Origin: Candidatus Limnocylindria bacterium
Lineage (GTDB): Bacteria > Chloroflexota > Limnocylindria > P2-11E
NCBI GenBank assembly: GCA_036523395.1
Contig: DATDEH010000048.1
Span: 1-41,870 of the forward strand
DNA: 41,870 nt
Direction of reading: 5' to 3'
A program made the translations under genes and the position numbers. The notes beneath the pieces were generated by a model. That model had not been told where the DNA came from and did no database searches. It saw only the letters and a program-made list of their open reading frames with translations. Shown here piece by piece: positions 589 to 35,842 of this stretch (the first letter of the stretch is position 1; every line of letters starts with the position of its first letter).

Positions 589-600
589 CGACCGCTCGCC

Positions 601-629: not shown

Positions 630-630
630 G

Positions 631-657: not shown

Positions 658-715
658 TTCAAAACGACGGCCCCAGCCGGGCACCGGCGCGGGCGAAGTG
701 AAGGGGGAAATTCGA

Positions 716-1027: not shown

Positions 1028-1041
1028 GGAGAGGGATAAAC

Positions 1042-4620: not shown

Positions 4621-4654
4621 ACCCGGAGGCTAACGGGGCTCCGCGGCTGGCCGC

Positions 4655-4683
4655 CGCAACCGCCGCTCAACTTTGCCGTATCC
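4655..4683 (+). promoter_or_regulatory. Weak candidate 11-bp-periodic box
   Basis: CGCAACC (4655-4661), 4 bp, CTCAACT (4666-4672), 4 bp, CGTATCC (4677-4683). It keeps the 7+4 spacing of the stronger boxes in this locus but with more mismatches. It lies in the divergent gap between the two glycosyltransferases. It would be dismissed without the stronger copies at 18053, 22525 and 33602. Confidence 0.3.
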
Positions 4684-4718
4684 ACTCCCAAACGGCGGAC
4701 CGTCAGGCTCCCGGGCGG

Positions 4719-14793: not shown

Positions 14794-15737
14794 GCTGCGG
14801 CGCCGGCGACACCGCGGATCATGCTCACGAGCTGATAGAGCGGATCTGGAGGTGACTGCACCCCAAGTAGCGCCACCATGCGATCAGTACTCCCCACGAA
14901 GCGCACGACCTCGATGGACCGGCGTGGCTCAACACGGATCTCGATGCTCGCGCCTGACATCTGTGCGATCCGTCGCGCGAGGTCGAGGATCTTCGTGCCC
15001 GTGCCGCTCGCGACATTTATCGGGGGAAGCGCGACATCGGCGTCAGCCGCGTGTCTGAGCGCGCGGACCACGTCGCCGATCCAGATGAAGTCGATGATCT
15101 GCTCCCCGCCGTAGACCACGAGGTCACGGCCCTTCCGAGCTTCGCCGATCCAATGCGGGATGACCCGTCCGAAGTCGCGTTCCCCGTATACGTTGGCCAA
15201 CCGCAACACGGTCGTCTCGACACCTCGTTCGCGCGCGAACGCCCGGCATAGAGCCTCGCCCGCGACCTTGCTCGCGCCGTAGAGATTGATCGAATAGAGC
15301 GGATGAGCCTCGTCCACCGGAAGGCTCACGGGCTCTCCGTACACCTCACGTGAGCTCGTAAAAAGGACGCGACGGATCCCGTGGGCTGCCGCCGCATTCA
15401 GGACGTTGTAGGTCCCGACGACATTCGTGCCGAAGGTGTAGTCGGCATCCGCGGCCGCGCCCATGACCGTGGACTGGGCCGCCAGGTGATAGACGAGCGT
15501 CGCCCCGCGAAAGACGCGCCGCATCTCCGCAAGGTCCCGTACGTCCGCGTGAACGATCCGGAGTCGGGGGTCGTTCTCCCGGGCGGCGAGGTTCTCCGGT
15601 CGCCCCCGCGTCATGTTGTCGACGACGATGACCTCGACGGCGTCGCCGTCGAGGAGCGCATCAACGAGGTGACTACCGATGAACCCCGCCCCGCCCGTGA
15701 CAACGACGCGGTCGCGCCAGCCCTGCACGCCACGCAT
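14790..15737 (-). CDS. NAD-dependent nucleotide-sugar epimerase/dehydratase (extended SDR)
   Basis: 315 residues. Rossmann motif TGGAGFIGSH (~14-23), DNMTRGRPENL adenine-ribose acid, HLAAQS, TSSREVYGEP with the catalytic serine, and Y153xxxK157 (LYGASK). The family interconverts or dehydrates UDP/GDP sugars; overall form is closest to UDP-glucose 4-epimerase-like proteins (RLANVYGERDFGRVIPHW). ATG 15737 has AGGAA just upstream. It is the first gene of the minus-strand operon epimerase-GT4-GT2-ECF and is preceded by one of the repeated CTCAAC-type boxes (15762-15790), though only ~25 bp away. Confidence 0.88.
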   Translation of the reverse strand: MRGVQGWRDRVVVTGGAGFIGSHLVDALLDGDAVEVIVVDNMTRGRPENLAARENDPRLRIVHADVRDLAEMRRVFRGATLVYHLAAQSTVMGAAADADYTFGTNVVGTYNVLNAAAAHGIRRVLFTSSREVYGEPVSLPVDEAHPLYSINLYGASKVAGEALCRAFARERGVETTVLRLANVYGERDFGRVIPHWIGEARKGRDLVVYGGEQIIDFIWIGDVVRALRHAADADVALPPINVASGTGTKILDLARRIAQMSGASIEIRVEPRRSIEVVRFVGSTDRMVALLGVQSPPDPLYQLVSMIRGVAGAAA

Positions 15738-15761: not shown

Positions 15762-15790
15762 CGTTACTCGGGGGTTGAATTGCCGTTGAG
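15762..15790 (-). promoter_or_regulatory. 11-bp-periodic triple box upstream of the epimerase operon
   Basis: On the minus strand: CTCAACG (15790-15784), 4 bp, TTCAACC (15779-15773), 4 bp, AGTAACG (15768-15762). The half-site and spacing match the plus-strand boxes at 18053, 22525 and 33602. It lies 25 bp before the epimerase ATG and 114 bp before the divergent secreted-protein gene. There is little room for a -10 before the epimerase start, so it may also act on the divergent gene or repress. Confidence 0.55.
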
Positions 15791-18052: not shown

Positions 18053-18081
18053 CTCAACCGACACTCAACCCTCGGACAACG
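18053..18081 (+). promoter_or_regulatory. 11-bp-periodic triple box upstream of ugd
   Basis: CTCAACC (18053-18059), 4 bp, CTCAACC (18064-18070), 4 bp, GACAACG (18075-18081). It lies 20 bp after the preceding stop and 55 bp before the ugd start. A -10-like TACGCT follows at 18102-18107. The first 18 bases match the boxes at 22525 and 33602 at every fixed position (CTCAACCG-N3-CTCAACC). Confidence 0.7.
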
Positions 18082-18135: not shown

Positions 18136-19467
18136 ATGAGTGGCGTCTCGATCGTTGGCGCGGGACACGTCGGTGTCGTCTACGCGGCTGGTCTGGCCGA
18201 GCTCGGTCACCAGGTCAGGGTCATCGATGTCAACGAGAAGCGCGTTGCCATGCTCCGCAGCGGTCGGATCTGGTTCTATGAGCCTGGCCTGCCCGAGCTG
18301 CTCACACGGGGGCTGTCGCGCAAGCGCATCACATTCACCACGAGCTACCCGGCCGGTCTGGCGCGCGCTCGCTTCGTGTTCGTCTGTGTTCCGACGCCCA
18401 CCACCAGCGAAGGGACGCTTGACGACAGCTACCTGCGGAGTGCCTTCTCGAACATCCGGCAGTACGCGAAAGCACCGCGCCCGATCATCGTCAACAAGAG
18501 CACGGTCCCGGTCGGCACCGGCGATGTGGTCGCTCGACTCTTCGATGGCGAGGACATCCACGTCGTCTCCAACCCCGAGTTCCTTGCCGAGGGACGGGCC
18601 GTGGAAGACTTCTTCCACCCATCGCGCATCGTCATCGGCTCGCGCAACCGCATCGCGGCGGAAGCGGTCGCCACCCTGTACGCGCCTCTCCGGGCCCCCG
18701 TCGTCCACACCGATCCGGTCTCGGCCGAGTTCAGCAAGCTTGCGGCGAACGCCTTCCTGGCAACGAAGGTCTCGTTCGCGAACGTGCTCTCTCGGATCGG
18801 CGAGTCCGTCGGCGCTGACGGTGAGGGTGTGGCCAAGGCCCTCTCGCTCGACCCGCGCATCGGCGCCGGTCACCTGCGAGCCGGCCTTGGCTTCGGAGGG
18901 TCCTGCCTACCCAAGGACTTGGCCGCGGTCGAGCAGCTTGCACGCCGCTTCACCGACTCATCCGGATTCTTCACCGCGGTCGCCGCGGTGAATCGCGCAC
19001 AGCGGTCGCGGGTCGTCGATCTCCTTCACGACCGATTTGGCGCCATCGCCGAGCGGCGCATCGCGCTGCTCGGAGCCACCTTCAAGGCGAACACCGACGA
19101 TCTGCGGGAATCTCCGGCCCTCGCGCTCGCACGGCAGCTCGACGAGCTGCACGCACTGGTCACCGTCTACGACCCGGTCGCGGCACCGCAGCTCAAGAGC
19201 CTCGCTCCGACACTGCATCTCGCTCGGTCCGCGATGTCGGCCGTCAAGGGCGCGGACGTCGTGATCGTTGCGACTGAGTGGCCTGAGTTCGCCTCTCTCG
19301 ATCTCGCTGCCGTGCGTCGGGCGATGAGCGGATCGTTGCTCATCGACGGTCGCGGCCTCTTCGATGTTGCGTCGGCGCATCGTGCTGGCCTCGACTACTT
19401 CAGCTTCTCCACGGCCGGGATCCGCGAGTGTGCCGTCGAGGAGCCGCTGCCGGCCGTCGCGAGCTGA
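18136..19467 (+). CDS. ugd: UDP-glucose 6-dehydrogenase
   Basis: 443 residues, the usual length. It oxidises UDP-glucose twice with NAD+ to UDP-glucuronate in the cytoplasm. N-terminal Rossmann IVGAGHVGVVYAAGLAELGH; VCVPTPTTSEGTLDDSYL; NKSTVPVGT; NPEFLAEGRAVEDFFHPSRIVIG; catalytic cysteine in GFGGSCLPKD (Cys257); C-terminal LLGATFKANTDDLRESPAL. The ATG is preceded by AAGGGGTGGG. Its downstream neighbour (six bases away) converts the product to UDP-xylose. The 11-bp repeat box just upstream suggests regulated expression; B. subtilis tuaD, the equivalent gene, is under PhoP control, an analogy only. Confidence 0.96.
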   Translation: MSGVSIVGAGHVGVVYAAGLAELGHQVRVIDVNEKRVAMLRSGRIWFYEPGLPELLTRGLSRKRITFTTSYPAGLARARFVFVCVPTPTTSEGTLDDSYLRSAFSNIRQYAKAPRPIIVNKSTVPVGTGDVVARLFDGEDIHVVSNPEFLAEGRAVEDFFHPSRIVIGSRNRIAAEAVATLYAPLRAPVVHTDPVSAEFSKLAANAFLATKVSFANVLSRIGESVGADGEGVAKALSLDPRIGAGHLRAGLGFGGSCLPKDLAAVEQLARRFTDSSGFFTAVAAVNRAQRSRVVDLLHDRFGAIAERRIALLGATFKANTDDLRESPALALARQLDELHALVTVYDPVAAPQLKSLAPTLHLARSAMSAVKGADVVIVATEWPEFASLDLAAVRRAMSGSLLIDGRGLFDVASAHRAGLDYFSFSTAGIRECAVEEPLPAVAS

Positions 19468-20439: not shown

Positions 20440-21450
20440 ATGGTCGACGTGCTCAACGTCATCGAACGTGTGCGAGTGCCCTCGATCGATCGGCGTGGGC
20501 TGCGGGTCCGTTGGTTCGAGCGCTGGGAACGCACGCTTGACGAGGCGCTTGCCGCCCTGCCTGAGACCGAGGCCAGCCCGCACGAACTTCTCGGTCTGCT
20601 GATGCGCAATCCGTCGGCAATGGCGAAGCGTACGGCTCTCGTCACGGATCGCGATCGTCCAGTAGCGGTGCTCGGCCTGCGAAGGCGAAAGATGTTCTGG
20701 GAGCCCGTCTGGGGCGGCGGCGTGAACGAGCGTTTTCGGCTCGCCGTCGCCGAGGGGTACGCGTCGGCGGCGCTCGCCGCGACCGGCGCGAATGTCTGGA
20801 TCATGAGCCGCGACCGGCCGTCCGCCTCGAACGCGGTGAGAGCCGTCACCGAGCTACCGCGTTTCGGCGCGCCGCTGAGCGGCGCCTACGAAGAGCACTG
20901 GAAGTCCTCGAGTCAGTGGGACAGCGTCAAACAGGCTCGCCGACGATCGGCGGCATTTACGCTCGAAGTAGACGCACCCGGTTCGGCCGAGTGGACGCTA
21001 CGCAACTGGGCGCGGAAGTGGTCGGCGCACGAGGCCGAGTCCGATCTGCTCGCCGCGGCGGAGTTCTACGCGGACCGATCACGGTTTCACGCGTTCCGGT
21101 TGTATGACGGCGTCACGCCGATCGCGGGCTGCACCTACATCGTCGACGGAACCGTGCTGCTCGCGCAGCTCAACTACTTCGACGCGGCGTACCGACGCAA
21201 CGGCGTTCAAACGCGCCTCGACGATCTGGTCTTCGCCTGGGCTCGAACGAGATACTCGACGATGGATCTCGGGTGCAGCTACCAAGCGGACTCATACAAG
21301 CGCCGCTGGGCACCCCGAGATGGGAGCTCGTGGCTGTGGAACGTCGCGCCACTGCATCTTCACCTCGTTCGTGAGGGGGTGCGTTTTGGCAGACGCGCCG
21401 TGGCCACAGGGTTCAGCACCTTTGGATCCAGGCCGGGCGTGACGGCGTGA
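20440..21450 (+). CDS. FemAB/GNAT-like acyltransferase, copy 1
   Basis: 336 residues. The N-terminal module (GLRVRWFERWERTLDEALAALPE…SPHELLGLLMRN…KRTALVTDRDRPVAVLGLRRRKMFWEPV) is followed by a GNAT fold of the Acetyltransf_6/FemAB type (~170-300): FTLEVDAPGSAEWTLRNWARKW, FHAFRLYDGVTPIAGCTYIVDG, FDAAYRRNGVQTRLDDLVFAWA, DLGCSYQADSYKRRW. Relatives transfer acyl or aminoacyl groups to cell-wall or EPS precursors. It is the first of three tandem paralogues (20440, 21447, 22607), followed by a smaller GNAT. It begins ten bases after uxs and overlaps copy 2 by four bases (GTGA). The substrate is unknown. Confidence 0.8.
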   Translation: MVDVLNVIERVRVPSIDRRGLRVRWFERWERTLDEALAALPETEASPHELLGLLMRNPSAMAKRTALVTDRDRPVAVLGLRRRKMFWEPVWGGGVNERFRLAVAEGYASAALAATGANVWIMSRDRPSASNAVRAVTELPRFGAPLSGAYEEHWKSSSQWDSVKQARRRSAAFTLEVDAPGSAEWTLRNWARKWSAHEAESDLLAAAEFYADRSRFHAFRLYDGVTPIAGCTYIVDGTVLLAQLNYFDAAYRRNGVQTRLDDLVFAWARTRYSTMDLGCSYQADSYKRRWAPRDGSSWLWNVAPLHLHLVREGVRFGRRAVATGFSTFGSRPGVTA

Positions 21451-22511
21451 CCGGCGTGGGATCGCATCCGAACATCGAACTGCCCGTTCGGCCACACGCT
21501 TCCGATCGCGCCGGCACCATGAGCCGAGGTTTGCGCGTCCGATGGTTCGATCCCTGGAGTTCGGAGGTCGACGCGGCACTGCTGTTGCTTCCCGAGCCCG
21601 AAAGCTGTCCTCACGACCTGCTCGCGGAGCTCATGCAAGGTCCGACTCGAACGCGTAAGCGCACGGCGATCATCACGCTGCGAGGCGAGCCTGTGGCCGT
21701 TGTGGGTTTGCGGAGCCGCAAGCACTTCTGGGAGCCTGTGTTCTCTGCGAGCGTTTGCCCGCGCGCGAAAATGCCCGCGCGCGACGGGATGCTCTTTCCT
21801 GCGCTTGCCGCCCTCGGCCTCGACGTCTGGACGGGCGGCTGGGAGGATGCCCCGGAAGGATCACTCCCGAACGTGAGAAGCGCCTTCTCATTACCGATGT
21901 ACAAGGTCGACTGCGGGAAAGGCGCCGAGGAGCATTGGCGGCAGAGCGGGAATGCCAGAGCCGTCGAGATCGGTCGGAATCGCACCAGGGGGTTCACCCT
22001 CGAGGTCGATGCTCCGGGCGCGACGGAATGGGTCATCGAAAACTGGGGTCGCCAATGGCGGCACCACCCGAGTCAAGAGACGATCTGCGTTGAAGATCAA
22101 CTGATCGCCGCGCGGTACTTCCAGCCGCGCGGGCTTCTACACACGTTCCGGCTGCTCGATGGCGGCCAGCCGGCCGCCGGCTACGTCGGGGCGGTGTACC
22201 GCGGCGAGATCGTGCTCGTTTGCGGTCACCGCGAGGCCGAGTACGAACGCCGCAGCGTCGGCATCCGTCTGTTCGATCTCGTGATCGACTGGGCCGCGGC
22301 AGCCGGCTACGCGAAGGTCGACATCGGCGGAGGCCATGCCTACAAGGCCAAGTGGGCGCCGGAAGACGGGCAGAGGTGGTACTTCAATGTCTGCCCGACG
22401 CCGCTCTACGTCGTGAAGAAGGCCGTGCGCGTGGCGCGATCGAGTCTCAGCTCGTTCAGAAACGGCGCCGCCGGCCGCGCCACGACGGCTGCTTCCGCGG
22501 CCGGCCAGTAG
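21447..22511 (+). CDS. FemAB/GNAT-like acyltransferase, copy 2
   Basis: 354 residues from GTG 21447 in a GTGA overlap with copy 1. An internal ATG at ~21519 (MSRGLRVRWFDPW) aligns with the start of the conserved part and is an alternative. Same layout as copy 1: LRVRWFDPW…PHDLLAELMQ…KRTAIITLRGEPVAVVGLRSRKHFWEPV, then GFTLEVDAPGATEWVIENWGRQW, HTFRLLDGGQPAAGYVGAVYRGE and KVDIGGGHAYKAKWAPEDGQRWYFNV. It is the most diverged of the three: the Glu-rich AHEAESDLL helix of copies 1 and 3 is replaced by HHPSQETICVEDQL. Copy 3 is separated by a regulatory gap. Confidence 0.78.
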   Translation: MTGVGSHPNIELPVRPHASDRAGTMSRGLRVRWFDPWSSEVDAALLLLPEPESCPHDLLAELMQGPTRTRKRTAIITLRGEPVAVVGLRSRKHFWEPVFSASVCPRAKMPARDGMLFPALAALGLDVWTGGWEDAPEGSLPNVRSAFSLPMYKVDCGKGAEEHWRQSGNARAVEIGRNRTRGFTLEVDAPGATEWVIENWGRQWRHHPSQETICVEDQLIAARYFQPRGLLHTFRLLDGGQPAAGYVGAVYRGEIVLVCGHREAEYERRSVGIRLFDLVIDWAAAAGYAKVDIGGGHAYKAKWAPEDGQRWYFNVCPTPLYVVKKAVRVARSSLSSFRNGAAGRATTAASAAGQ

Positions 22512-22524
22512 CCCGAACTGCCTG

Positions 22525-22553
22525 CTCAACCGTCCCTCAACCGCCGAACAACG
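22525..22553 (+). promoter_or_regulatory. 11-bp-periodic triple box upstream of FemAB-like copy 3
   Basis: CTCAACC (22525-22531), 4 bp, CTCAACC (22536-22542), 4 bp, AACAACG (22547-22553). A -10-like TATCTA lies at 22570-22575, 16 bp after the third unit, the clearest promoter-like arrangement among the boxes. It starts 14 bp after the copy 2 stop and would restart transcription at copy 3. Confidence 0.7.
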
Positions 22554-22606
22554 CCGCGTGCCGTGGTGTTATCTAGGTTCACCACTGTGGAGACGCCGAG
22601 GGTCGG

Positions 22607-23611
22607 GTGCCGCGAATGGAATTGACGGAGCTGCTCGAGAGGCTGCCGGTGCCTTGGCTCGATCGGCAGGGTCTCGCCGTCGAATGGTTCGAGCCATGGG
22701 ACTTGAGTCTCGAGTCTGCACTTCGGAGCCTGCCCGAATCACTCACATCGCCCCACGAGCTCCTCGGGCTGCTCATGCGGAACGTAACGACGGGCCGGAA
22801 ACGCACGGCGCTGGTGACACGTGGCGGTCGTCCGGTCGCGGTGCTCGGCCTGCGACGGTGGATGCGCTTCTGGGAACCGGTCTGGTGGCGCGGTCCGATC
22901 AATGAACGCTTTACTTCTGCCGCGCACGAAGCCGAGCTGCTCCCCGCTCTCGCGGCGACCGGGCTCAACATCTGGATGGTGACCCGATCTGCCCCCGAGA
23001 TGGGACGGGTCCGGAGCGCAACACAGTTTCCGGTCTACAAGATCCCCTGTGCAGACTCCGAGCGGGTTTGGCGTGAGACCGGTCACTGGAAGCGGATCCG
23101 CGAAGCGCGGAACCGGACGCGTGGCTTCATGTTCGAGATCGACCCGCCTGGAGCCGCCGAGTGGACGATTCGGAACTGGGCTCGCAAGTGGCATGCGTAC
23201 GAGGCCGAGAGCGATCTGCTGCTCGCTGCCGAGTACTTCGCGCAGCGTGACCTGTGCCATGTGGCCGTTCTGCGCGAGGGCGGCGTGAAGGCCGCAAGCT
23301 GCATGTTCCTTGTGGTCGGTGACGAGCTGCTCGCGCAGGTGAACTTCCACTCCGAGGACTATCGCTGGCATGCCGCACAGACGCGCTTATACGACCTCGT
23401 CGTCGCGTGGGCGTACGGGTCGGGCGTGCGATCGATCGACATGGGCGTCAGCTATGGGAAGAGCTACAAGCAACGGTGGGCTGTCCGCGACGGGACGGCT
23501 TGGATGTTCAATGTCGCGCCCGCGCACCTGCACTTCATGCGCAGCGCCGTCAAGGCCGGCGCTTCCGCGCTCGGGTCGGTGCGAAGGTTCGCGCCAAAGG
23601 GAACGACGTGA
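22607..23611 (+). CDS. FemAB/GNAT-like acyltransferase, copy 3
   Basis: 334 residues from GTG 22607; ATG 22616 is an alternative, as the GAGGG at ~22598 could serve either. Blocks match copy 1 closely: WLDRQGLAVEWFEPW, SPHELLGLLMRN, KRTALVTRGGRPVAVLGLRR, FWEPVWWRGPINERF, GAAEWTIRNWARKWHAYEAESDLLLAAEYF, SYKQRWAVRDGTAWMFNVAPAHLHFMRSAV. It is the first gene of a new unit with small GNAT, NodB deacetylase and GT9, all joined by 1-10 base overlaps, and has its own upstream box. An acyl or aminoacyl modification of an EPS sugar is the best inference. Confidence 0.8.
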   Translation: MPRMELTELLERLPVPWLDRQGLAVEWFEPWDLSLESALRSLPESLTSPHELLGLLMRNVTTGRKRTALVTRGGRPVAVLGLRRWMRFWEPVWWRGPINERFTSAAHEAELLPALAATGLNIWMVTRSAPEMGRVRSATQFPVYKIPCADSERVWRETGHWKRIREARNRTRGFMFEIDPPGAAEWTIRNWARKWHAYEAESDLLLAAEYFAQRDLCHVAVLREGGVKAASCMFLVVGDELLAQVNFHSEDYRWHAAQTRLYDLVVAWAYGSGVRSIDMGVSYGKSYKQRWAVRDGTAWMFNVAPAHLHFMRSAVKAGASALGSVRRFAPKGTT

Positions 23612-25094: not shown

Positions 25095-26212
25095 GCCCGC
25101 GGCGGATCCTCGTGATCCTCGACAATTGCCACGAAGCCGACGCGATCCGTCTTCAGTTCTGCCTCGACACGATGCGCAGCGCGTTCGCCGACGCCCACAT
25201 CACGCTCCTTATCAATGCACGCGCAGCCGCGGTCTTCGAGCGTGTCCGACCGTTCGACCGACTCATCGCGAGCGACCTGTACCAGGGACGAGACGCGGAA
25301 GGGCTCCGCCTGCGCTGGCGGAAAGCCACCCACTTCTCGAAGCTGCTTCTTCGCGTCGGCTCTGGCTACGACCTCGCGATGACTCTCGGAGTCGGTAGCA
25401 CGGTGCTCAACGTCCTCGCCCGTTTGGCGGCGCGGCGTTCGGTCGGCTTCGCGAATCGCTTCCCATGGCTCTTGTCGTCGCACCTCGGACCCTACGACCC
25501 GTACTCGGACGTGACCGCCCAACATCGGCGGCTGCTTGCGACGTTGGGCGTCTCGGCATCGGAACTCGGTGAGGCGACACTCCGCACCGCGGCCGAGGAC
25601 CGGGACGTCGCGAGGCTGCTCGACCAGAAAGGGATCGACGGAGCGCGCTCGCTGGTGCTCCTTCATCCGGGTTCCGACTGGGCGTGCCAGCAGTGGCTCG
25701 TCGAGCGCTGGGCCGCGCTCGCCGACGCCATCACAGCTAACTATGGCGCGCAGGTGGCCTTCACCGGCATCTCCAGCGAGATGGAGTACATCGCGAGCAT
25801 CCAGAACAAGATGCGGGCAGCATCCGTGTCGTTCGCCGGTCTGACGACGCTCGCCCAGCTTGAAGCGCTCATCGCACGCGCGACGCTCATGATCTGCGTC
25901 GACAGCGCCGCGCACGATCTGGCGTTGCGCACGAAGACCCCATTGGTCGTGCTCGCCGGCCCGTCAGACGCCGAGCGTCCGCCGAACGGTCAGACACGAC
26001 GTTCGGTCGTGAACTCGATGTCTCTCGAGCTCAAGGACCGCATCAACCGCTGCAAAGAACCGAAGGACATCTTCGGCGGCTGTCACAACTACGAATGCCC
26101 GATGGCCGGCCTGCGTCCGATCTCGGTTGCCAGCGTGCTCGACGCGGTCGCCTCATGCATGGTGACCACCGTTCCGCCACTTGCCGTGGCTACGGGTTCG
26201 GCCCTCTTCTAG
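25085..26212 (+). CDS. Glycosyltransferase family 9 (heptosyltransferase-like)
   Basis: About 375 residues from ATG 25085; GTG 25091, in a GTGA overlap with the deacetylase stop, is equally plausible. GT9 pattern: RRILVILDNCHEADAIRLQFCLDTMRSAFADAHITLL, DLAMTLGVGSTVLNVLARLAARRSVGFANRFP, the donor-site LLHPGSDWACQQWLVERWAALADAI, and FAGLTTLAQLEALIARATLMICVDSAAHDLA. A cysteine cluster near the C-terminus (NRCKEPKDIFGGCHNYECPMAGL) matches the CxxC-type tail seen in many GT9 proteins. GT9 outside LPS clusters transfers heptose or other sugars to surface glycans. The gene meets the minus-strand GT4 tail to tail with a four-base overlap. Confidence 0.88.
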   Translation: MAVSPRRILVILDNCHEADAIRLQFCLDTMRSAFADAHITLLINARAAAVFERVRPFDRLIASDLYQGRDAEGLRLRWRKATHFSKLLLRVGSGYDLAMTLGVGSTVLNVLARLAARRSVGFANRFPWLLSSHLGPYDPYSDVTAQHRRLLATLGVSASELGEATLRTAAEDRDVARLLDQKGIDGARSLVLLHPGSDWACQQWLVERWAALADAITANYGAQVAFTGISSEMEYIASIQNKMRAASVSFAGLTTLAQLEALIARATLMICVDSAAHDLALRTKTPLVVLAGPSDAERPPNGQTRRSVVNSMSLELKDRINRCKEPKDIFGGCHNYECPMAGLRPISVASVLDAVASCMVTTVPPLAVATGSALF

Positions 26213-27336
26213 CCCGCCCTCGTTCGTCGGCTGCTCCGACCCGCGACTGCTTCCTCGATGAGGGCCGCGACCTGACGAGCCTCTACTTCGGTGCTGAAGC
26301 GCCGCACGGCATCTTCGCGGGCCGCGCGGCCCCAGCTCGCACCGCGCTCGACATCCAGGATGACGGAGTCGATCGCCGTCGCGAGCGCCGGACCGTCTCC
26401 CGGCGGGACCAAACGACCGGTGCGTCCGTCCTTGACGATCTCGGGGATCCCGCCAACGGCCGAGACCACCACAGGCATGCCGCACGCCATCGCCTCGATC
26501 GACGCCATCGAGAACATGTCGGCCAGCGTCGGCAGGACGAGCGCGTCGCAGCTCTGGTACAGCCGCAGGAGACGATCGTCATCGGGCCCGAAGTCACGGT
26601 ACACATGCACCCCGGGCTCCTCGGCGACGTCGGCGCGCGTCACGAGATGAAGGTCGCAGCGGTCGCGCAGGTGCGTGCGATACACGTCGAGCAGCAGGGG
26701 TCCGCCCTTTCGGGCGAAGTCAGCTCCGACGAAGATGAGCTGCGGCCGCTCGTTCCTCGTCCGGCGCTCGTCCGGATGCCATCGCGCCGTGTCGACGCCC
26801 GGGTGCACGACGTGCATCCGCTCGGGCGGAGCGCCGAAGTCATTGATCATCGAGTCGGCGACCCACTTGGACCACGGCAGCAGTCCCGTGCACTTTTGAT
26901 AGAAAAGGCGGTGGAGGGCACCACTCGCGCGGCCTTTCAGCGTGGCCGGATCGGTCTGATCCACGTAGTGCTCCTGAAGGCCCGCATAGAGTGCCGGAGT
27001 GCTGTCCACGGCGAAGAACAGCGGGATGTTCTGAGGGATGACCCGCGTCAGCGTGTACGGCAACAGCAGAACACTGAGCTGCGACCAGACGGCGTCGACC
27101 GAACGCGACCAGATCATCGGGAGCAAACACGAGAGCGAGCGCACGTGGCCGCGCGGCTTGTGCGGGATCGGGAGTCGTTCGAGCCAGCCGCCATCGACGT
27201 AGGGACGCGTCTCGACCCCGACGACCTCGAAGCGATCGGAGGGGAAGGCTTTCCTCAGGTGCCTGTATTGCGTTTGGACGCCCGCGACCATCCACGCCAC
27301 CATCGCGAGCCGGATCCGACCATCGCGTGCGATCAC
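26209..27336 (-). CDS. Glycosyltransferase family 4
   Basis: About 375 residues from GTG 27336 (GAGGGA just before it); ATG 27303 is the alternative. The longer frame to 27513 overlaps the upstream GT4 by 127 bases and is rejected. IRLAMVAWMVAGVQTQYRHLRKAF begins the acceptor domain. The donor domain carries FVGADFARKGGPLLLDVYR, YRDFGPDDDRLLRLYQSCDALVLPTLADMFSMASIEAMACGMPVVVSAVGGIPEIVKDGRTGRLVPPGD. Likely EPS sugar transfer at the inner membrane. It is the last gene of the minus-strand run kinase-regulator-methyltransferase-GT4-GT4 and is similar in its donor domain to the plus-strand GT4 at 33663 (FxRKGG, CLSIALMEATAAGMAV-type). Confidence 0.87.
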   Translation of the reverse strand: MIARDGRIRLAMVAWMVAGVQTQYRHLRKAFPSDRFEVVGVETRPYVDGGWLERLPIPHKPRGHVRSLSCLLPMIWSRSVDAVWSQLSVLLLPYTLTRVIPQNIPLFFAVDSTPALYAGLQEHYVDQTDPATLKGRASGALHRLFYQKCTGLLPWSKWVADSMINDFGAPPERMHVVHPGVDTARWHPDERRTRNERPQLIFVGADFARKGGPLLLDVYRTHLRDRCDLHLVTRADVAEEPGVHVYRDFGPDDDRLLRLYQSCDALVLPTLADMFSMASIEAMACGMPVVVSAVGGIPEIVKDGRTGRLVPPGDGPALATAIDSVILDVERGASWGRAAREDAVRRFSTEVEARQVAALIEEAVAGRSSRRTRAG

Positions 27337-27385
27337 TCCCTCGGCAGCGCCCGCGTTGGCGATACCCGCGGTCAACGATGACTCG

Positions 27386-28618
27386 CTACGGGCGGACAGC
27401 GGCGCGCTGGCGCGACCCTGGCCGTGGGTTCGGGGCACCGTCGGCACGCAGTCGGGCGGGAACTCGTCCGACGCCGACCGAGGCATAGAGCTCGAGAAGG
27501 TCGTCGGCGACACGCTCGACCGAGAAGTGCGTGCTCACGTGTGAGGCCGCCGCCTTCGAAAGGCTCGCACGCAGCGCGTCGTCGCGCACGATGCGTGCGA
27601 GCACCGCGGCGAGCCCGCGTGGATCCGCGGGTGGCGCGCTGAGACCGGTCTCCTCGGTGATGACAGCCTCCTCCGGCCCGCAGAAGGTGATCACCGGGGG
27701 CGCTCCGCGAGCCATTGCCTCGAGCAGCGCGATCGACATGGAGCCGGCGGGCACGGCGAGCACGAAGACGTCCATGGCGTCGACGAACACACCTGGGTTC
27801 TCACGCTGTCCGGCGAAGTGCACGTCCGCGCGGATGCCGAGCTCACTTGCGAGAGCCTCGAGCTCGGCGCGAAGCGGGCCGTCGCCGACAAGAAGCAACT
27901 GAGTCGTCATCTCGCGGCGGACGATCGCGAACGCACGCAAGAGGTCGTCGAGTCCCTTGCCGTTCGCGAGTCGGACGACGCTCCCGATCACCACGACGTC
28001 ACCCGGGATCCCCATCTGATCTCGAACGGCGGCGCGGTTGCGCGCCTTCTCCGTGTCGGTAACCGCTGGGATCGGCACCCCGTTGAGGATCGACCCGAAA
28101 CGGTGCTCCCGGGCACCGCCGCGATTGCGGCGTAGCGCCGCGTTCCGTCGTGATACCGCGACCAGGCCGTGGACCAGGTGATCCGTCAGCTTCTTCGTGG
28201 CGCGATCTTGCAGCGCCATCCGCTCCGCCGGGACATCGTGCTCGGTGAGGACGACGGTCGCCCCCGTAAGCGCGCGCGACAGAGCGACGACACCGAGGCC
28301 ACCCGTCGCGCCACCGGTCTGGACGTGCACCACGGTCGGACGGAAGGCGCGGAGGATCGACGCGAGCTTCGAGAGCCGCGCGAGCTGCGCGCGCCGACCG
28401 CTACGGGCGTCAGTCGTGAGCCGGTCGACCTCGGCTCCGCCGGATCGGAATCGCGCGTCGAGCCCATCGAATGCGCTGCCTTCGGGGAGCACCGCCCGGA
28501 CGGGAATGCCGCGGCGGACGTATTCGGCGGCCAGGTCGACGCAGTGCGTTTCCATGCCGCCCACCGCCGTGGACTGCAAGATCAAGCAGACGCGAGCGCG
28601 GGACTGGTCACCGCTCAT
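27386..28618 (-). CDS. Glycosyltransferase family 4, paralogue of the 3418-4620 gene
   Basis: A 410-residue GT-B enzyme. VCLILQSTAVGGMETHCVDLAAEYVRRGIPV, HVQTGGATGGLG, ATVVLTEHDVPAERM, RRNAALRRNRGG; donor domain GSVVRLANGKGLDDLLRAFAIV, LLVGDGPLRAELEALASELGI, AGSMSIALLEAMARGAPPVITFCGPEEAVITEETGLSAPPADPRGLA. Most of these blocks have a direct counterpart in the GT4 at 3418-4620, 23 kb away, so the two arose by duplication. Its start overlaps the methyltransferase stop by four bases. It likely extends the EPS repeat unit. Confidence 0.9.
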   Translation of the reverse strand: MSGDQSRARVCLILQSTAVGGMETHCVDLAAEYVRRGIPVRAVLPEGSAFDGLDARFRSGGAEVDRLTTDARSGRRAQLARLSKLASILRAFRPTVVHVQTGGATGGLGVVALSRALTGATVVLTEHDVPAERMALQDRATKKLTDHLVHGLVAVSRRNAALRRNRGGAREHRFGSILNGVPIPAVTDTEKARNRAAVRDQMGIPGDVVVIGSVVRLANGKGLDDLLRAFAIVRREMTTQLLLVGDGPLRAELEALASELGIRADVHFAGQRENPGVFVDAMDVFVLAVPAGSMSIALLEAMARGAPPVITFCGPEEAVITEETGLSAPPADPRGLAAVLARIVRDDALRASLSKAAASHVSTHFSVERVADDLLELYASVGVGRVPARLRADGAPNPRPGSRQRAAVRP

Positions 28619-29619
28619 CCCATCCTCACCGAAGCTTTGGTTCGTCGGTCGCGCGCGAAGAAATCTGCGAGCTGATGTCGGAGTGCCCGATACGCCGGGC
28701 GCAGCGGGCTGAGGTAGAGCGCCACGTCGCGTGTGCCGCGCAGCGCGTGCGCGAGGCCCGCGGACTCAACGCGCCGATAGCGAGTGACCATTCCGTCGAG
28801 GTTCTCTTCCGGCTCGAAGCCCGCACGCTGGAGCTGGTAGCGCAAAGGCAGGTCGTCGTCATAGAGATGCGGTGCGTTCTCGGCGCTCGCCGGACGCACG
28901 TCGAAGTTCGCGAAGAGCAGACCGTTCGGACGCAGCGCCATATGAAGCATCCGGCAAGCGGCGGGCACGTCGGGGATGTGCACCAGCGTGTCCACGGCCG
29001 TGATCACGTCATAGCTGCTTGGCCGGATCGTTTCGAAATTAAGATCCAAGTACGTCGCTCTGTCACCGCGCCGCTCAAGCCTGAATCGCGCGAAATCCAA
29101 GAGCGACGTCGAGATGTCCGCGAGATCGGATTCGTATCCGAGCCGCGTAAAAAGCTGGCTCGTCGCCCCGATGCCTGATCCGAAATCGAGATGCCGAGCG
29201 CCAGAACGCGCGCGCGGAACGCTCTGCGCGATCGCCACGCTCACGGGATAGGCATAACCCATCGCTTGGAGATACGAATACCAGAGCAGATCGAACGCCC
29301 ATGACTTCGTCGCGCGATAGAAGGCGGTCATCGCCTCCTCGGAGTCGCGCCGCTCTGCTGTCCACTCTTCGACCGACCATTGCTCCCATTCGATGCAGCG
29401 GCGTGCGCACTCGTCCGCTGCCAGGCCAAAGAAGGTGCTGAGGTCATCGAGCACCGCCGCGCGGAGGTCACCGGCACCCGTGAACTGCAGTGACTCTCGA
29501 TAGAGGTCCATAGCGGCGCTGACGAAAGCGCGCCGCTGTCGCGCCGGCCACAGCGCGCGGTCCGGGGCCGGATCCACGAGCGGATCAGCGTGTTGCCCCT
29601 GCTTCAGAACACGTGGCAT
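28615..29619 (-). CDS. SAM-dependent methyltransferase
   Basis: About 334 residues from ATG 29619 (GTG 29628 possible). Class I fold in the middle: motif I RHLDFGSGIGATSQLFTRLGYESDLADIS (SAM glycine loop and acidic post-I residue), then SYDVITAVDTLVHIPDVPAACRMLHMALRPNGLLFANFD, as in Methyltransf_11/12 enzymes. An N-terminal ~130-residue helical part (ALWPARQRRAFVSAAMDLYRE…WEQWSVEEWTAERRDSEEAMTAFYRATKSWAFDLLWYSY) may bind the acceptor. Probably methylates a sugar of the EPS or caps its end. It lies 23 bases after the response regulator, so it may be transcribed with the two-component genes. Confidence 0.85.
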   Translation of the reverse strand: MPRVLKQGQHADPLVDPAPDRALWPARQRRAFVSAAMDLYRESLQFTGAGDLRAAVLDDLSTFFGLAADECARRCIEWEQWSVEEWTAERRDSEEAMTAFYRATKSWAFDLLWYSYLQAMGYAYPVSVAIAQSVPRARSGARHLDFGSGIGATSQLFTRLGYESDLADISTSLLDFARFRLERRGDRATYLDLNFETIRPSSYDVITAVDTLVHIPDVPAACRMLHMALRPNGLLFANFDVRPASAENAPHLYDDDLPLRYQLQRAGFEPEENLDGMVTRYRRVESAGLAHALRGTRDVALYLSPLRPAYRALRHQLADFFARDRRTKASVRMG

Positions 29620-29642
29620 TGCGAACACAACCTCGGTAGCAG

Positions 29643-30323
29643 TTATGACATGGCCAAGCTGTAACCGACCCCAGGAACAGCTCGAATACCGCCGTTCTTG
29701 CCGGCCGAAAGGTTCAGCTTCTGGCGGATATGGCAGATGTGGGTCTTTAGGAGGCTTGAGTCGCCTCCCTCGTAGCCCCAGGCGTACTCCACGAGACGCG
29801 AATAGGGAATGACACGGCCCTCGTTGACGCCGAGCAAATAGAGGATCCGGAACTCGAGCGGCGTGAGCTGTATCTGCCTATCTCCGGCTGTGACACCGTA
29901 GGACTGCAGATCAAGGCGTACCTCGCCGATCTTCACTTCGCGCACGGGCTGGCGGTACGGGTCAGCCTGCGCCCTGCGAAGCACGGCCTTGATGCGCGCG
30001 CCGAGCTGCTTGGCGCTGAACGGCTTGTTGACGTAGTCGTCCGCCCCGACACGGAATCCGTGAAGGACGTCCTCCTCTTCGTCGCGTGCCGTGAGCATGA
30101 TGATCGGGGTCGCGCCTTCGTGACGCAGGCGTCGGCAGACCTCGTAGCCGTCCACCTTGGGCAGGTTCGCGTCAAGGAGGACGATGTCGGGGGAGCTCTC
30201 CTCCCAGCGTCGGATGGCCTGTTGCCCGTCCATCGCGGTCAGTACCGTGTAACCCTCTCGACCGAGGGCGTAGGTCAACAGATCGAGAAGATCCGCATCG
30301 TCTTCGACGAGCAGCACTTTCAT
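29643..30323 (-). CDS. OmpR/PhoB-family response regulator
   Basis: 226 residues. Receiver domain (1-118): VLLVEDD with acidic residues 7-9, phospho-acceptor Asp51 (VLLDANLPKVDGYEV), Thr78 and Lys100 (DDYVNKPF). Winged-helix DNA-binding domain (~130-224): QLTPLEFRILYLLGVNEGRVIPYSRLVEYAWG, SSLLKTHICHIRQKLNL and VPGVGYSL. This subfamily binds tandem 7-bp half-sites with an 11-bp period, which is the geometry of the boxes found around this locus, so it is the obvious candidate to bind them (inference). Four-base overlap with the histidine kinase gene upstream and 23 bp to the methyltransferase downstream. Confidence 0.94.
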   Translation of the reverse strand: MKVLLVEDDADLLDLLTYALGREGYTVLTAMDGQQAIRRWEESSPDIVLLDANLPKVDGYEVCRRLRHEGATPIIMLTARDEEEDVLHGFRVGADDYVNKPFSAKQLGARIKAVLRRAQADPYRQPVREVKIGEVRLDLQSYGVTAGDRQIQLTPLEFRILYLLGVNEGRVIPYSRLVEYAWGYEGGDSSLLKTHICHIRQKLNLSAGKNGGIRAVPGVGYSLAMS

Positions 30324-31072
30324 ACCGCGTCCATCCTTTCCGCGATTGCACCGGGTTCTTCCGAGGCGGGGACGGCCTTACCCATCATGGGAAGCAACTC
30401 GAACCAGAACGTGGTGCCACCACCAACGCGATTGAATGCACCGACCCTCCCGCCATGCGCGCGCACGATCGACCGCACGACCCAAAGCCCGATCCCGAGA
30501 CCCTCGCCGCCTGAGCGACCCGCGCGGTCGTATGCGCGGAACGCGGTGCGAAGCGCCCCGTCCGGAAGACCGGGACCACGGTCGGAGACGCTCACGCGCA
30601 CTTTGCCGGCGACGGTCGAGACGGCGATCTCCACCTCCGTGCCCGCGTCGGCGTACTTGTTCGCGTTGGAGAGGAGGTTGAGAAGCACCTGAGAGATCCG
30701 GTGGTCATCGGCTTCCACGAGCGGGCATGTCGGAAGCGAGAAGACGCGGATCGTCTGTCGTTTGCGATCGAAGCTCGGTCGAACGACCGACTCGATCTCC
30801 CCGATCGCTTCGAGGATGTCAAGCGGGCGCAGGTGGACCTGAAAGCGGCCCTCGCTGATCGCCGCACTCGCGAGCAGGTTCTCGAGCAGGCCACGCATCC
30901 AAATGGTCCGGCGATGTATCGCAGAAACGAGGTCGCGAACCTGGCCCGCGTCGAGACTGTCGAGGTCGCGTCCGAGGACCTCAGATGCAGACTCGAGCGC
31001 CGTGAGCGGGCCTCGCAGCTCATGTGCGACGGTCGCAATCAGACTTGGAGACTCGTGAACGATCACGGCCAT
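30320..31072 (-). CDS. Soluble histidine kinase without a sensor domain
   Basis: Only 250 residues. The H-box starts almost at the N-terminus (TVAHELRGPL, His17), leaving no room for a membrane helix, PAS or GAF sensor. DHp helices follow to ~85, then the HATPase domain: N box LLNLLSNANKYADAG (131-144), G1 DRGPGLPDG (164-172), G2 GEGLGIGLWVV (190-199). The in-frame sequence upstream of ATG 31072 has no ATG, GTG or TTG codon nearby, so the short form looks genuine. It presumably senses through a partner or through its DHp domain. It phosphorylates the co-translated response regulator (four-base overlap). First gene of the minus-strand run; the palindrome at 31148-31167 lies ~75 bp upstream. 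Confidence 0.9.
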   Translation of the reverse strand: MAVIVHESPSLIATVAHELRGPLTALESASEVLGRDLDSLDAGQVRDLVSAIHRRTIWMRGLLENLLASAAISEGRFQVHLRPLDILEAIGEIESVVRPSFDRKRQTIRVFSLPTCPLVEADDHRISQVLLNLLSNANKYADAGTEVEIAVSTVAGKVRVSVSDRGPGLPDGALRTAFRAYDRAGRSGGEGLGIGLWVVRSIVRAHGGRVGAFNRVGGGTTFWFELLPMMGKAVPASEEPGAIAERMDAV

Positions 31073-31264: not shown

Positions 31265-31293
31265 CACAACCTCGGGTCAACCGGCGGTAGACC
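31265..31293 (+). promoter_or_regulatory. 11-bp-periodic triple box upstream of the WecG-type gene
   Basis: CACAACC (31265-31271), 4 bp, GTCAACC (31276-31282), 4 bp, GTAGACC (31287-31293). It is less conserved than the CTCAACC copies but shows the same 7+4 phasing with C-A/G-A-C-C cores, 80 bp before the start of the core EPS operon. A TAGAAC at 31298-31303 is a poor -10 candidate. Confidence 0.45.
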
Positions 31294-31373: not shown

Positions 31374-32165
31374 TTGGATTCCAGCGATGTCCGGACGAGA
31401 CGGCCACGAGTCTCGCTGTTCGACGTGCTCGTCGATCGTGTGGATCGGGCGAGCGCGATCGTGATGCTGCGCGGGTTCTTACGTGACGGAGGCCGACACC
31501 AGATCGTGACCGTCAACCTGGACTTCATGCGGCTCGCTGATCGCGACCCTGCTTACCGCGCGGTCCTGAACCGCGCCGACCTCGCAGTGGCCGACGGGAT
31601 GCCGCTGGTCTGGTTCTCACGTCTTGGCACGGCGTCCTTGCCGGAGCGCGTCGCGGGGATCGACCTTGTCGAGCAGTGCTGTCGCCTCGCTACTGAGGAG
31701 TCCGTGCCGGTGTTCTTCCTTGGAGCGTTGCCTGGCGTTGCGGCGGAGGCTGCGCGGGTGCTGAGCGGACGCTATCCCGGGCTGCGGATCGCGGGCACCT
31801 ACTCGCCGCCCTTCGGGCCCGCGAGCTCCGAAGGCGATGAAGAGATCGTGCGCGTTGTCTCGGCCGCTGGCCGCTGTGTGCTGCTGGTCGCGTTCGGCGC
31901 TCCGCGTCAGGACCGGTTCATCAGCGATCACCTGCACGAATTCGACGCCGCGATCGCTATGGGCGTGGGCGGGTCGTTCGACATCTTCGCCGGGACTCTG
32001 CGTCGCGCACCCTTTTGGATGCAGCGCACCGGGTTCGAATGGATCTGGCGGCTGATGCAGGAGCCGCGCCGACTCTGGCGACGTTATCTGGTCGAGGATG
32101 TTCCGTTCATCCTCCGGCTCGGCGCGCGCGCGGCGCGCGGACGCATCGCGCTGGACGTCGGATGA
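31374..32165 (+). CDS. WecG/TagA/CpsF-family glycosyltransferase (GT26)
   Basis: 263 residues from TTG 31374; no ATG or GTG gives a complete domain, and a G-rich tract (GGGTGGGGG) lies a little upstream. GT26 signature: VSLFDVLVDRVDRASAIVML, HQIVTVNLDFMRLADRDPAYRAVLNRADLAVADGMPLVWFSRL, ERVAGIDLVEQCC, VFFLGALPGVAAEAARVL, VAFGAPRQDRFI, GVGGSFDIFAG, RAPFWMQRTGFEWIWRLMQEPRRLWRRYL. Relatives add ManNAc(A)-type sugars to the lipid-linked first sugar, so this is probably the second step of the repeat unit. Four-base overlap (ATGA) with the sugar-transferase gene downstream. Confidence 0.93.
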   Translation: MDSSDVRTRRPRVSLFDVLVDRVDRASAIVMLRGFLRDGGRHQIVTVNLDFMRLADRDPAYRAVLNRADLAVADGMPLVWFSRLGTASLPERVAGIDLVEQCCRLATEESVPVFFLGALPGVAAEAARVLSGRYPGLRIAGTYSPPFGPASSEGDEEIVRVVSAAGRCVLLVAFGAPRQDRFISDHLHEFDAAIAMGVGGSFDIFAGTLRRAPFWMQRTGFEWIWRLMQEPRRLWRRYLVEDVPFILRLGARAARGRIALDVG

Positions 32166-33601: not shown

Positions 33602-33630
33602 CTCAACCGCTTCTCAACCTTCTGTGAACA
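33602..33630 (+). promoter_or_regulatory. 11-bp-periodic triple box before the GT4-Wzz-BYK unit
   Basis: CTCAACC (33602-33608), 4 bp, CTCAACC (33613-33619), 4 bp, GTGAACA (33624-33630). It begins at the base after the sugar-transferase stop codon and ends 33 bp before the GT4 start. No clear -10 follows. It matches the boxes at 18053 and 22525 through CTCAACCG-N3-CTCAACC. Confidence 0.65.
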
Positions 33631-33662: not shown

Positions 33663-34781
33663 GTGCTCAGGGCTGCTTTCGTGATGGAACAAACCCTCGG
33701 CCACGTGACGCACGGCCAGAACCTCCGGGACGCAATCGCTCGCCAGACCACGATCGAGGCGAGCTGGATCCCGATCCCCTTCGAGGTTAGTGGCCCCGGG
33801 CGATACGTGCCGGCGTACGCGAACAACTGGTCGGTCCGCGCCAGCTATCGCGCCAGGCGCGGGTTGTCGGAGGTGCTCGCTACCTGGCAGCACGACGTTC
33901 TGTTCTTTCACACGCAGGTGACGTCGCTTTTCAGTGTTCGACTCATGCGCCGCCTGCCCGCGGTCGTGTCGCTCGACGCGACCCCAATTAACTTCGACTC
34001 CGTCGGAGCGGCCTACGGGCACTCCGCCGCCGGTCATACGTGGCTCGATGCGCGCAAGTCCTCAATGAATAGGGCGTCATTCCAGGCCGCGCGTGCGCTC
34101 GTGACCTGGTCCGAGTGGGCGGCCGCGTCGCTGGTGGCGGACTATGGCATCGACTCGGCGAAGATCTCGGTCATCGCGCCAGGTGCCGCTCGCGCGTTCT
34201 TCGCCATCGGAGCCGAGCGCCAGGCGAGCACAACGAGCGGTGGCGTGGTCCGTCTGCTGTTCGTGGGCGGCGACTTCCAACGGAAGGGTGGTGCGGATCT
34301 TCTTGGCGCATTTGCCGCAGCGCGCGCCGACGGCAAGGCTGAGCTCCACATCGTCACGCGTGATGCGGTCGCGTCTCGTCCCGGGGTGTTTGTGCATCGA
34401 GGGATTCGACCCAATAGCACCGAGCTCCTGGACCTCATTCGACAGTCGGACATCTTCGTGCTTCCAAGCCGCGGCGAGTGCCTGTCCATCGCGCTGATGG
34501 AAGCGACCGCGGCCGGCATGGCGGTCATCTCGACGAACGTCGGTGCGCTCGGCGAAGCGGCCGTCGACGGGCAGAACGCGCACGTCGTTGTCCCCGGCGA
34601 TCCGCGGGGTCTCAGGTCCGCGATCGCTTCGCTTGTCGAAGACAAGGCCCTGCGCACGCGGTTTGGGCGTGCCGGCCACGCTCTCGCGCGACAACGGTTC
34701 GACGCTGAGCGGAACAATCAGGCAATCCTCGACATTCTTGCGTCGGTCGCACGACCGATGGTCGCAAGGAGCGTGGCGTGA
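33663..34781 (+). CDS. Glycosyltransferase family 4
   Basis: 372 residues from GTG 33663 (VLRAAFVMEQTLGHVTHGQNLRDAI); ATG 33684 is an alternative. Upstream in-frame sequence overlaps the sugar transferase and the regulatory box and is rejected. Acceptor half: VLFFHTQVTSLFSVRLMRRLPAVVSLDATPINFDSVG. Donor half: LLFVGGDFQRKGGADLLGAFAAA, ELHIVTRDAV, FVHRGIRPNSTELLDLIRQSDIFVLPSRGECLSIALMEATAAGMAVISTNVGALGEAAVDGQNAHVVVPGDPRGL. A retaining EPS glycosyltransferase of unknown specificity. Four-base overlap (GTGA) with the Wzz-like gene downstream. Confidence 0.88.
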   Translation: MLRAAFVMEQTLGHVTHGQNLRDAIARQTTIEASWIPIPFEVSGPGRYVPAYANNWSVRASYRARRGLSEVLATWQHDVLFFHTQVTSLFSVRLMRRLPAVVSLDATPINFDSVGAAYGHSAAGHTWLDARKSSMNRASFQAARALVTWSEWAAASLVADYGIDSAKISVIAPGAARAFFAIGAERQASTTSGGVVRLLFVGGDFQRKGGADLLGAFAAARADGKAELHIVTRDAVASRPGVFVHRGIRPNSTELLDLIRQSDIFVLPSRGECLSIALMEATAAGMAVISTNVGALGEAAVDGQNAHVVVPGDPRGLRSAIASLVEDKALRTRFGRAGHALARQRFDAERNNQAILDILASVARPMVARSVA

Positions 34782-35842
34782 TCGAGAAGGTGCTCGAAGC
34801 GTTCTTCCGGCATTGGCTCCTGATTCTTCTGCCGGTCATCGTGATCCCATTGGATGTGGCTGCATCAGTGCTTTCGACACCGCCGCAGTACGAAGCGTCC
34901 GCGGGGATGTGGGTGGAGCAGGCGACGTACCTCAATTACAGCATTGACGACATCAATCGGTATCTCTCGCCAGCGCAGAACCAGCGCAACCGGCTCGTCG
35001 AGCTCATGCAGACGCGGAGCTTCCTTGATGCCGTCGCCAAGAACACAGGCTTGGCCGAGATCGCGGCGCGGCCGACGGGCAGCGACGATCTGCGGGATAT
35101 CTTCGCGCGTGACTTTGAGTCGAGCGCGACCGGTGACCATTTGCTCACGTTGAAATTCCGCGCGGAAAGCCGCGACCTCGCGCTGCAGGTCCTCAGCACG
35201 ATCTTCACGTCCTTCAGGACGCGAGCAGCGGCGGATCGCTACGGCCAGGCGCAGCTGGCGATCAGCTTTTATCAAACGAACCTCAGCGACGCCGAGGCGA
35301 CACTCGCGACGGCGCGAGCGGACCTCGCCAAGTTCCTCGCGGCCAACGTGAACATTGCGACGACGCTCAGCAGGAGCGGCGTCGACGTTGCTCGCGCGGA
35401 CCCTCAGTTCGCGGAGGCGCAGCGTCGAGTCGATGCCGCGCAGCGTGATGCCGACAAAGCCCGGGAATCGCTCGACCGCGCCGAGCTCGATGTGTCGGCG
35501 GGCACGAAGGGGTTCGAGCTCAGCTTCCGGCTGGCGGACGAACCGCAGGCCTCGCTGACCCCATCGCGTCAACTCAAGAAGGCGCTCATCTATCCGATCG
35601 CGGCACTCGTGTTCGGCGTGATCCTGAGCGCTTCGCTGTTATTCCTCTTCGCCCTGTCCGACCACTCGATCCGGTCGATCGCCGATCTCGCTCCTGACAC
35701 CGTGATCCTTGGGGTGCTTCCGCATCTGACGCCCGAAGGCGTGGCACGCAGGAGCGGACCAGCTGTGACGCGCCGGGCGGTCGCATTCGTGGCTGGCGCG
35801 ATCGTCCCCTTGCGCGGTGGAAAGGCGCGTGAGGCGTCATGA
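34778..35842 (+). CDS. Wzz/CpsC-type chain-length regulator
   Basis: 354 residues with two membrane helices: HWLLILLPVIVIPLDVAASVL (~12-32) and ALIYPIAALVFGVILSASLLFLFAL (~270-293). Between them lies an extracytoplasmic part with a long helical stretch (ISFYQTNLSDAEATLATARADLAKFL; FAEAQRRVDAAQRDADKARESLDRAEL) before the second helix, as in the Wzz/GNVR family, and a short C-terminal cytoplasmic tail. These proteins form a bell-shaped oligomer that sets polymer length and activate the adjacent BY-kinase. Separate Wzz and kinase polypeptides are typical of Gram-positive systems. GTG start in a GTGA overlap with GT4; four-base overlap with the kinase. Confidence 0.88.
   Translation: MIEKVLEAFFRHWLLILLPVIVIPLDVAASVLSTPPQYEASAGMWVEQATYLNYSIDDINRYLSPAQNQRNRLVELMQTRSFLDAVAKNTGLAEIAARPTGSDDLRDIFARDFESSATGDHLLTLKFRAESRDLALQVLSTIFTSFRTRAAADRYGQAQLAISFYQTNLSDAEATLATARADLAKFLAANVNIATTLSRSGVDVARADPQFAEAQRRVDAAQRDADKARESLDRAELDVSAGTKGFELSFRLADEPQASLTPSRQLKKALIYPIAALVFGVILSASLLFLFALSDHSIRSIADLAPDTVILGVLPHLTPEGVARRSGPAVTRRAVAFVAGAIVPLRGGKAREAS

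Follow-up and report, generated by a model that had tools for sequence, protein, structure and literature searches.

A histidine kinase without a sensor and the OmpR/PhoB-family response regulator encoded beside it are predicted, with a probability that we put at roughly 0.8, to be dedicated to the control of a surface-polysaccharide regulon, with the direct-repeat boxes CTCAACC-N4-CTCAACC as its candidate sites. The pair lies in the EPS locus of the window, by which we mean the whole 41,870-nt stretch of DNA analyzed here. The system belongs to the OmpR/PhoB-type two-component pairs, its kinase being unusual; its regulon, which is newly defined, is predicted to be wider than EPS and to include Tad pili and NusG-type antiterminators. 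A literature search, thin on subscription journals, found no description of such a system.

In the mechanism that we propose, the cytosolic kinase would phosphorylate the regulator encoded on the same transcript, and the phosphorylated regulator would bind as tandem monomers to CTCAACC-N4-CTCAACC and a weaker third unit, recruiting RNA polymerase to promoters with a -10 element some 32 bp beyond the second unit. This would switch on the cluster's genes for sugar nucleotides, glycosyltransferases and chain length and, outside the cluster, a Tad-pilus operon. In the least certain step, the kinase would lack phosphatase activity and be set by its own amount or by a partner. For a regulator so far uncharacterized, this supplies a candidate motif, a set of predicted targets (EPS, Tad pili and antiterminators) and a sensorless kinase that is conserved; most of the assemblies that represent the group here are fragmented. 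Two-component function without an input domain becomes directly testable, and box scans could predict surface-sugar and pilus genes across many genomes.

The EPS locus and its boxes

The regulator gene (29643-30323, minus strand) encodes 226 amino acids with Asp51 and the recognition helix SLLKTHICHIRQKL; its Pfam scores for Response_reg (109 bits, cut-off 30.2) and Trans_reg_C (58.9 bits, cut-off 26.2) place it in the OmpR/PhoB family. It shares a 4 bp overlap with the kinase gene (30320-31072, minus strand). As the initial annotation had it, the pair heads a minus-strand run, which profile scans resolve into a methyltransferase next after the pair (28615-29628) and two GT4 glycosyltransferases (27386-28618 and 26209-27513). 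The contig as a whole is an EPS locus with epimerases, a UDP-glucose/GDP-mannose dehydrogenase (UGD), GT2, GT4 and GT9 glycosyltransferases, WecG, a bacterial sugar transferase and Wzz, Wzy and Wzx-type genes; the gene finder was simple and purpose-written, and start positions and some gene calls are rough. The locus is flanked by genes for a GGDEF domain, GroES and GroEL (window 1-2673). IS110-type transposase pieces (DEDD_Tnp_IS110) lie between EPS genes at 6340-7040, a sign of the locus's past mobility. Positions 8222-11752 and 15904-18033 encode two large exported proteins that are related to each other and have an N_BRCA1_IG-like domain; their genes share a 262-nt repeat (78%) in inverted orientation, the first also has long coding repeats of 12-bp period, and homologs of these proteins were found in the G413 box cluster.

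Each box consists of two CTCAACC units in direct repeat, CTCAACC-N4-CTCAACC, and a weaker third unit, at an 11-bp period. Sites of OmpR geometry had been claimed around the regulator, and the window indeed holds four three-unit GGTTGA arrays of 11-bp period, compared with none in 100 shuffles, the pattern having been picked after two of the arrays had been seen. GGTTGAN5GGTTGA with at most one mismatch occurs nine times in the 3.02-Mb genome, six of them on this 41.9-kb contig, and its reversed control matches once. Because the GGTTGA pattern came from the window, we built a matrix from 46 sites, all of other genomes. It finds 12 window sites of at least 12 bits, eight outside accepted coding sequence and four inside, against a background of 60 Markov shuffles with a mean of 0.37 and a maximum of 2 sites. 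The 131.6 kb of other sequence from the same genome contains two sites, both in loci that had been fetched for holding the pattern.

The best window site (33602-33630, plus strand, 34.2 bits, three units) precedes a GT4 gene (33663-34781, plus), whose likely GTG start is about 44 bp away; the box is conserved in four other genomes, and a Wzz-type chain-length gene (34778-35842, plus) follows the target, as it does in other genomes. The plus-strand UGD gene (18136-19467) has a 26.8-bit box 66 bp ahead of it (18053-18081, plus), and the epimerase gene on the minus strand (NAD-dependent; 14790-15737) has one of 20.9 bits about 25 bp ahead of its start at 15737 (15762-15790, minus), again conserved in other genomes. 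A 25.9-bit box (22525-22553, plus) lies 65 bp ahead of a GNAT gene (Acetyltransf_6; 22607-23611, plus), which is the third of three tandem Acetyltransf_6 genes at 20440-23611 and has this upstream box of its own. The WecG/TagA-type glycosyltransferase gene (31374-32165, plus) is a probable target of a weaker box of 12.4 bits (31265-31293, plus) that stands between the kinase and WecG genes, facing WecG. Two box-like matrix sites on the minus strand lack a clear target (3124-3152, 20.6 bits; 3389-3417, 15.5 bits), and another on the plus strand (4655-4683, 15.2 bits) falls inside the uncertain 5′ part of the GT2 ORF 4602-6221. Four matches were discarded as false positives: 30654 and 30665 fall in the kinase N-box codons, 24465 and 40529 in coding sequence. 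A 17-nt match, GAGGTTGTGTWCGMAAT, at 29618 and 31257 was also dropped, since the pattern had been derived from those very copies, one of which overlaps the methyltransferase start.

Box placement was analyzed at 88 of the 108 listed places, the omitted ones being three overlapping second matches in G088 and eight, five, one and three places in G068, G064, G066 and G080, respectively. A start codon lies 20-140 bp downstream at 38 of the 88 places in the box orientation, compared with 13 of 88 in the reversed one (p = 6e-4). The third unit is in register, with AAC at +25 in 9 of 49 promoter-like sites and in no more than one at any other offset between 18 and 35; a fourth unit is weak (+36 in 5 of 49, and +37 also in 5). 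TANNNT is most frequent at offsets 49-51 (12 of 49 promoter-like sites; mean 0.59 per offset), such that a four-unit array would end about 10 bp ahead of the -10 element. The same spacing, about 10 bp to the -10, is reported for E. coli Pho boxes (PMC1906773), and this match in spacing suggests that the regulator would activate rather than repress the box promoters.

Distribution of the regulator and the predicted regulon

True orthologs of the regulator, with 50-75% identity, have a patchy distribution across other classes of the phylum and often adjoin a sensorless kinase and EPS genes. Among 60 relatives of the window's genome, every other regulator stays at or below 51% identity. The closest named relative (about 68-70% identity) is that of Centralia_MAG_106 (JAJPGT010000060.1), which adjoins a sensorless kinase and an epimerase, and 11 of 151 genomes around this one carry the regulator at E ≤ 1e-70. 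A phylum-wide draw gave 13 carriers in 400 genomes at 1e-80, the window's genome included, although ten of the other 12 are apparently earlier genomes drawn again (identical coordinates). Since all carriers in this draw except the window's genome belong outside its class, horizontal transfer is the simplest reading.

In a tree of 33 regulators, that of the window groups with G061's (89/72) within a clade of six (88/94), apart from own-family paralogs (100/99) and from paralogs in its own genome. The recognition helix is kept among carriers and differs in the own-genome paralogs. Own-family regulators with 46-51% identity, which we first took for orthologs, were set aside: nine of them form a clade of their own in the tree, their helix reads ALRSH or ALRTH instead of LLKTH, and their genomes have no clear box excess. 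These regulators often have a second OmpR-type regulator in tandem (L164, L166, L171, L172 and similar loci), and in L163 and L165 they adjoin another sensorless kinase. At seven of 17 ortholog loci no kinase gene stands next to the regulator (both G413 copies, both G080 copies, G088, G089 and the second G085 copy), and one (G066) is cut by a contig edge. Thus, the regulator, being present also without an adjacent kinase, is the constant part of the system, and the two are not strictly linked.

Co-occurrence of pair and boxes, the check that the initial annotation had proposed, was assessed by counting CTCAACCN4CTCAACC with at most one mismatch against reversed controls. The 11 regulator carriers contain 103 boxes against 25 controls, and the 140 non-carriers 211 against 189; box density differs between the two groups (Mann-Whitney p 9e-7, uncorrected for kinship), and within the nearest 30 genomes, comprising 11 carriers and 19 non-carriers, the excess of boxes over controls differs (p 5e-5); control density does not differ (p = 0.19). 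Enrichment is uneven, being strong in G062, G074, G088 and G413 and weak in G068 (11 boxes vs 8 controls) and others. One carrier found later, G413, ranked top of 26 genomes with 12 boxes against 1 control, but for another, G510, the prediction failed: it has the pair yet only 2 boxes against 2 controls. The 24 non-carriers of this follow-up test gave 40 boxes against 20 controls, the highest being 6 against 0 (G515), and a further non-carrier, G152, has 7 against 0. The expected association thus emerged between carriers and their near non-carriers but failed in G510 and is slight in several other carriers.

Boxes recur before homologous genes. An upstream box accompanies UGD in the window, G062 and G074; the GT4 'AFVMEQTLGHVT' in the window, G062, G074, G066 and G413; and the epimerase in the window, G061, G062, G074, G413 and, with its start re-placed, G510. 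Further box targets are HlyD-type proteins, GT87, PMT_2, a hexapeptide transferase and a sugar methyltransferase. In loci chosen by regulator (L226-L237, L158 and L371-L373, L158 also with one box), a box of at least 13 bits stands no more than 200 bp upstream of 8 of 222 genes, including three epimerase homologs, the G085 kinase and the G413 regulator; a box stands ahead of all three called homologs of epimerase 14790-15737, compared with 5 of the 219 other genes. A fourth homolog, in G510, has a three-unit array ahead of its re-placed start, missed by the automatic call. Loci L268-L327 and L374-L378 were fetched for holding boxes, as were many of the loci that served for target homology. Of the proteins encoded after boxes, 39 beyond the window were scanned for families, some of them neighbors of the first gene, with no control gene set.

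Beyond EPS, the candidate targets are a LuxR-type gene accompanied by TadE in the window's own genome, a prepilin-peptidase region in G062, NusG-domain genes (NusG-type antiterminators) in G061 and G089, and DUF4388 proteins. The local control by the regulator that had been envisaged therefore agrees with the co-occurrence and the conserved target boxes, but "local" is too narrow a word for boxes found at Tad-pilus, antiterminator and other genes elsewhere. Some genes after boxes have no surface theme (TIR-rhodanese, cupredoxin, phage-sheath-like and a replication initiator in G088). The G088 gene occurs in four copies (L301, L307, L308), each preceded at a distance of 120 bp by a multi-unit box array, and the one copy scanned matches Rep_trans replication initiators; a mobile element in G088 may use the regulator of the boxes.

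A box also marks the pair's own promoter in two genomes: in G085 it stands 46 bp upstream of the kinase gene, and in G413 an array precedes a regulator gene, this regulator copy lying outside an EPS locus. The orphan sensorless kinase of G089 has a box 258 bp upstream. We rejected autoregulation as a general rule, as only in G085 and G413 is a box directly before a kinase or regulator gene.

Co-occurrence could in part reflect joint inheritance of the EPS locus. Taken to its limit, linked inheritance would be all that ties the boxes to the pair, and they would be read by a different, widely distributed regulator such as an MtrA-like one. EPS loci do house both the pair and the boxes, and some non-carriers show a box excess, yet the boxes of carriers also stand at Tad, antiterminator and other non-EPS genes, at the G085 kinase promoter and at the G413 regulator copy outside an EPS locus. 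Moreover, own-family EPS homologs without the regulator show no upstream box among 12 distinct scorable cases (best 2.0 bits); on the other side, 177 kb of these own-family loci contain nine matrix matches of at least 13 bits. We consider this explanation unlikely and favor the pair as the controller.

Phosphate control and comparison with known systems

The boxes could instead be Pho boxes read by the genome's PhoB, with the local pair doing something else. CTCAACC-N4 resembles the cyanobacterial SphR box, for which PMC1906773 gives the unit CTTAACCT, a 3-bp linker and at least three tandem copies, and the third unit of the 33602 box is TGTTCAC on the opposite strand. Against this, the genome has a separate PhoB-like regulator and kinase on contig C56, beside PhoU and genes reading as pstBACS (PhoU was identified by profile, the pst names are our reading of the genes). 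The C56 region has repeats of its own, GTGAACGCTCGGTGAACG and CGTTCACCGCGCGTTCAC, of the GTTCAC type, its 20 kb contain no box with at most two mismatches, the recognition helix of its regulator, RTVDTHVKTLREKL, differs from that of the window regulator, and the box targets are non-phosphate genes. PhoU occurs on C72 as well; none of the window genes scanned is a phosphate gene, just as the initial annotation had stated. The window regulator scores 181.8 bits against the NCBIfam PhoB equivalog, below the cut-off of 296.2, its pair is not linked to phoU/pst, and no box was found in the C56 region with its pst-like genes. Given that the PhoB-like pair adjoins phoU with a different repeat, we rejected phosphate as the control of the CTCAACC boxes, for which it appears unlikely; binding by a distant PhoB, which had been named as the outcome that would overturn the proposal, is disfavored, and the Pho-box explanation as a whole is decidedly improbable.

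The control that we propose for the local pair resembles PhoR-PhoB and SphS-SphR in its OmpR/PhoB-type regulator and its candidate sites, tandem 11-bp-period repeats upstream of a TANNNT -10, and the SphR unit CTTAACCT (PMC1906773) is close to CTCAACC. It differs in its predicted targets, which are EPS, pili and antiterminators, in its sensorless kinase and in coexisting with a separate PhoB-like pair. MtrA is the regulator's best NCBIfam and PDB sequence match, although at 198.9 bits it stays below the MtrA cut-off of 300. MtrA has a cell-surface role, and its partner MtrB is a membrane sensor kinase, whereas the window kinase has no membrane sensor. The kinase's best NCBIfam match is NF006800 (126.2 bits, cut-off 342), which we take to be SasA. 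In the SasA-RpaA system of cyanobacteria, a soluble kinase is fed by a partner protein; the window kinase, by contrast, lacks an N-terminal input domain. Mycobacterium tuberculosis PhoP has a repeat sequence that differs from CTCAACC, and its PhoR is membrane-bound. The geometry of its sites, direct repeats of 7-bp motifs with a 4-bp spacer (PMC4832192), is identical to that of CTCAACC-N4-CTCAACC.

A kinase without a sensor

The kinase has 250 amino acids, with the motif HELRG and its phospho-acceptor at His17, preceded by 16 residues. A profile scan found HisKA (residues 11-73, 38.1 bits) and HATPase_c (122-226, 84.6 bits) and no other domain, and the most hydrophobic 19-mer reaches 1.01 on the Kyte-Doolittle scale, which indicates that there is no membrane segment. 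The reading frame stays open for 26 codons upstream of the start, none of them ATG, GTG or TTG, and then meets TAG. Profile, hydropathy and upstream-start checks thus bear out the description of a kinase with His17, no sensor or membrane input domain and no alternative upstream start.

All kinases that adjoin regulator orthologs, at nine loci (G000, which is the window's genome, G061, G062, G064, G068, G074, G084, G085 and G510), are without a recognizable sensor, as judged by profile for G000 and G061, by eye and hydropathy for the others and by eye only for G510. In the eight other genomes the called ORFs span 275-391 amino acids with His at about 27-56; the G061 kinase has His at 164, with an uncertain start, and is still sensorless. 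That the window kinase is a decaying remnant, its sensor lost in this genome, might be read from the mere 16 residues ahead of His17 but is highly improbable, as the ortholog-adjacent kinases of eight other genomes are equally sensorless and the catalytic domains are intact.

HisKA kinases require Thr or Asn four residues after the His for phosphatase activity (PMC3510030). Gly occupies this position (HELRG) in the kinases of six genomes (G000, G061, G062, G074, G068 and G510), Thr in those of G064, G084 and G085, and Ala in the G089 orphan kinase. The replacement of Thr/Asn by Gly in the closest kinases suggests that they are kinase-only phosphodonors without phosphatase activity, from which phosphotransfer to the regulator would proceed. 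We entertain, as a tentative and rather doubtful extension, a portable surface-polysaccharide regulon that moved with its boxes between classes of one phylum, in which the kinase gave up its sensor and its phosphatase residue and output is set by the amount of kinase, by self-regulation or by a separate partner, instead of a signal read by the kinase. That a signal reaches the kinase through a partner protein is a guess.

In G074, G062 and G068 (L226, L227 and L228), a second two-component pair adjoins the first. Its kinase shows a weak PAS match in G062 and carries HELRG in G062 and G074, and this second pair is a candidate signal partner.
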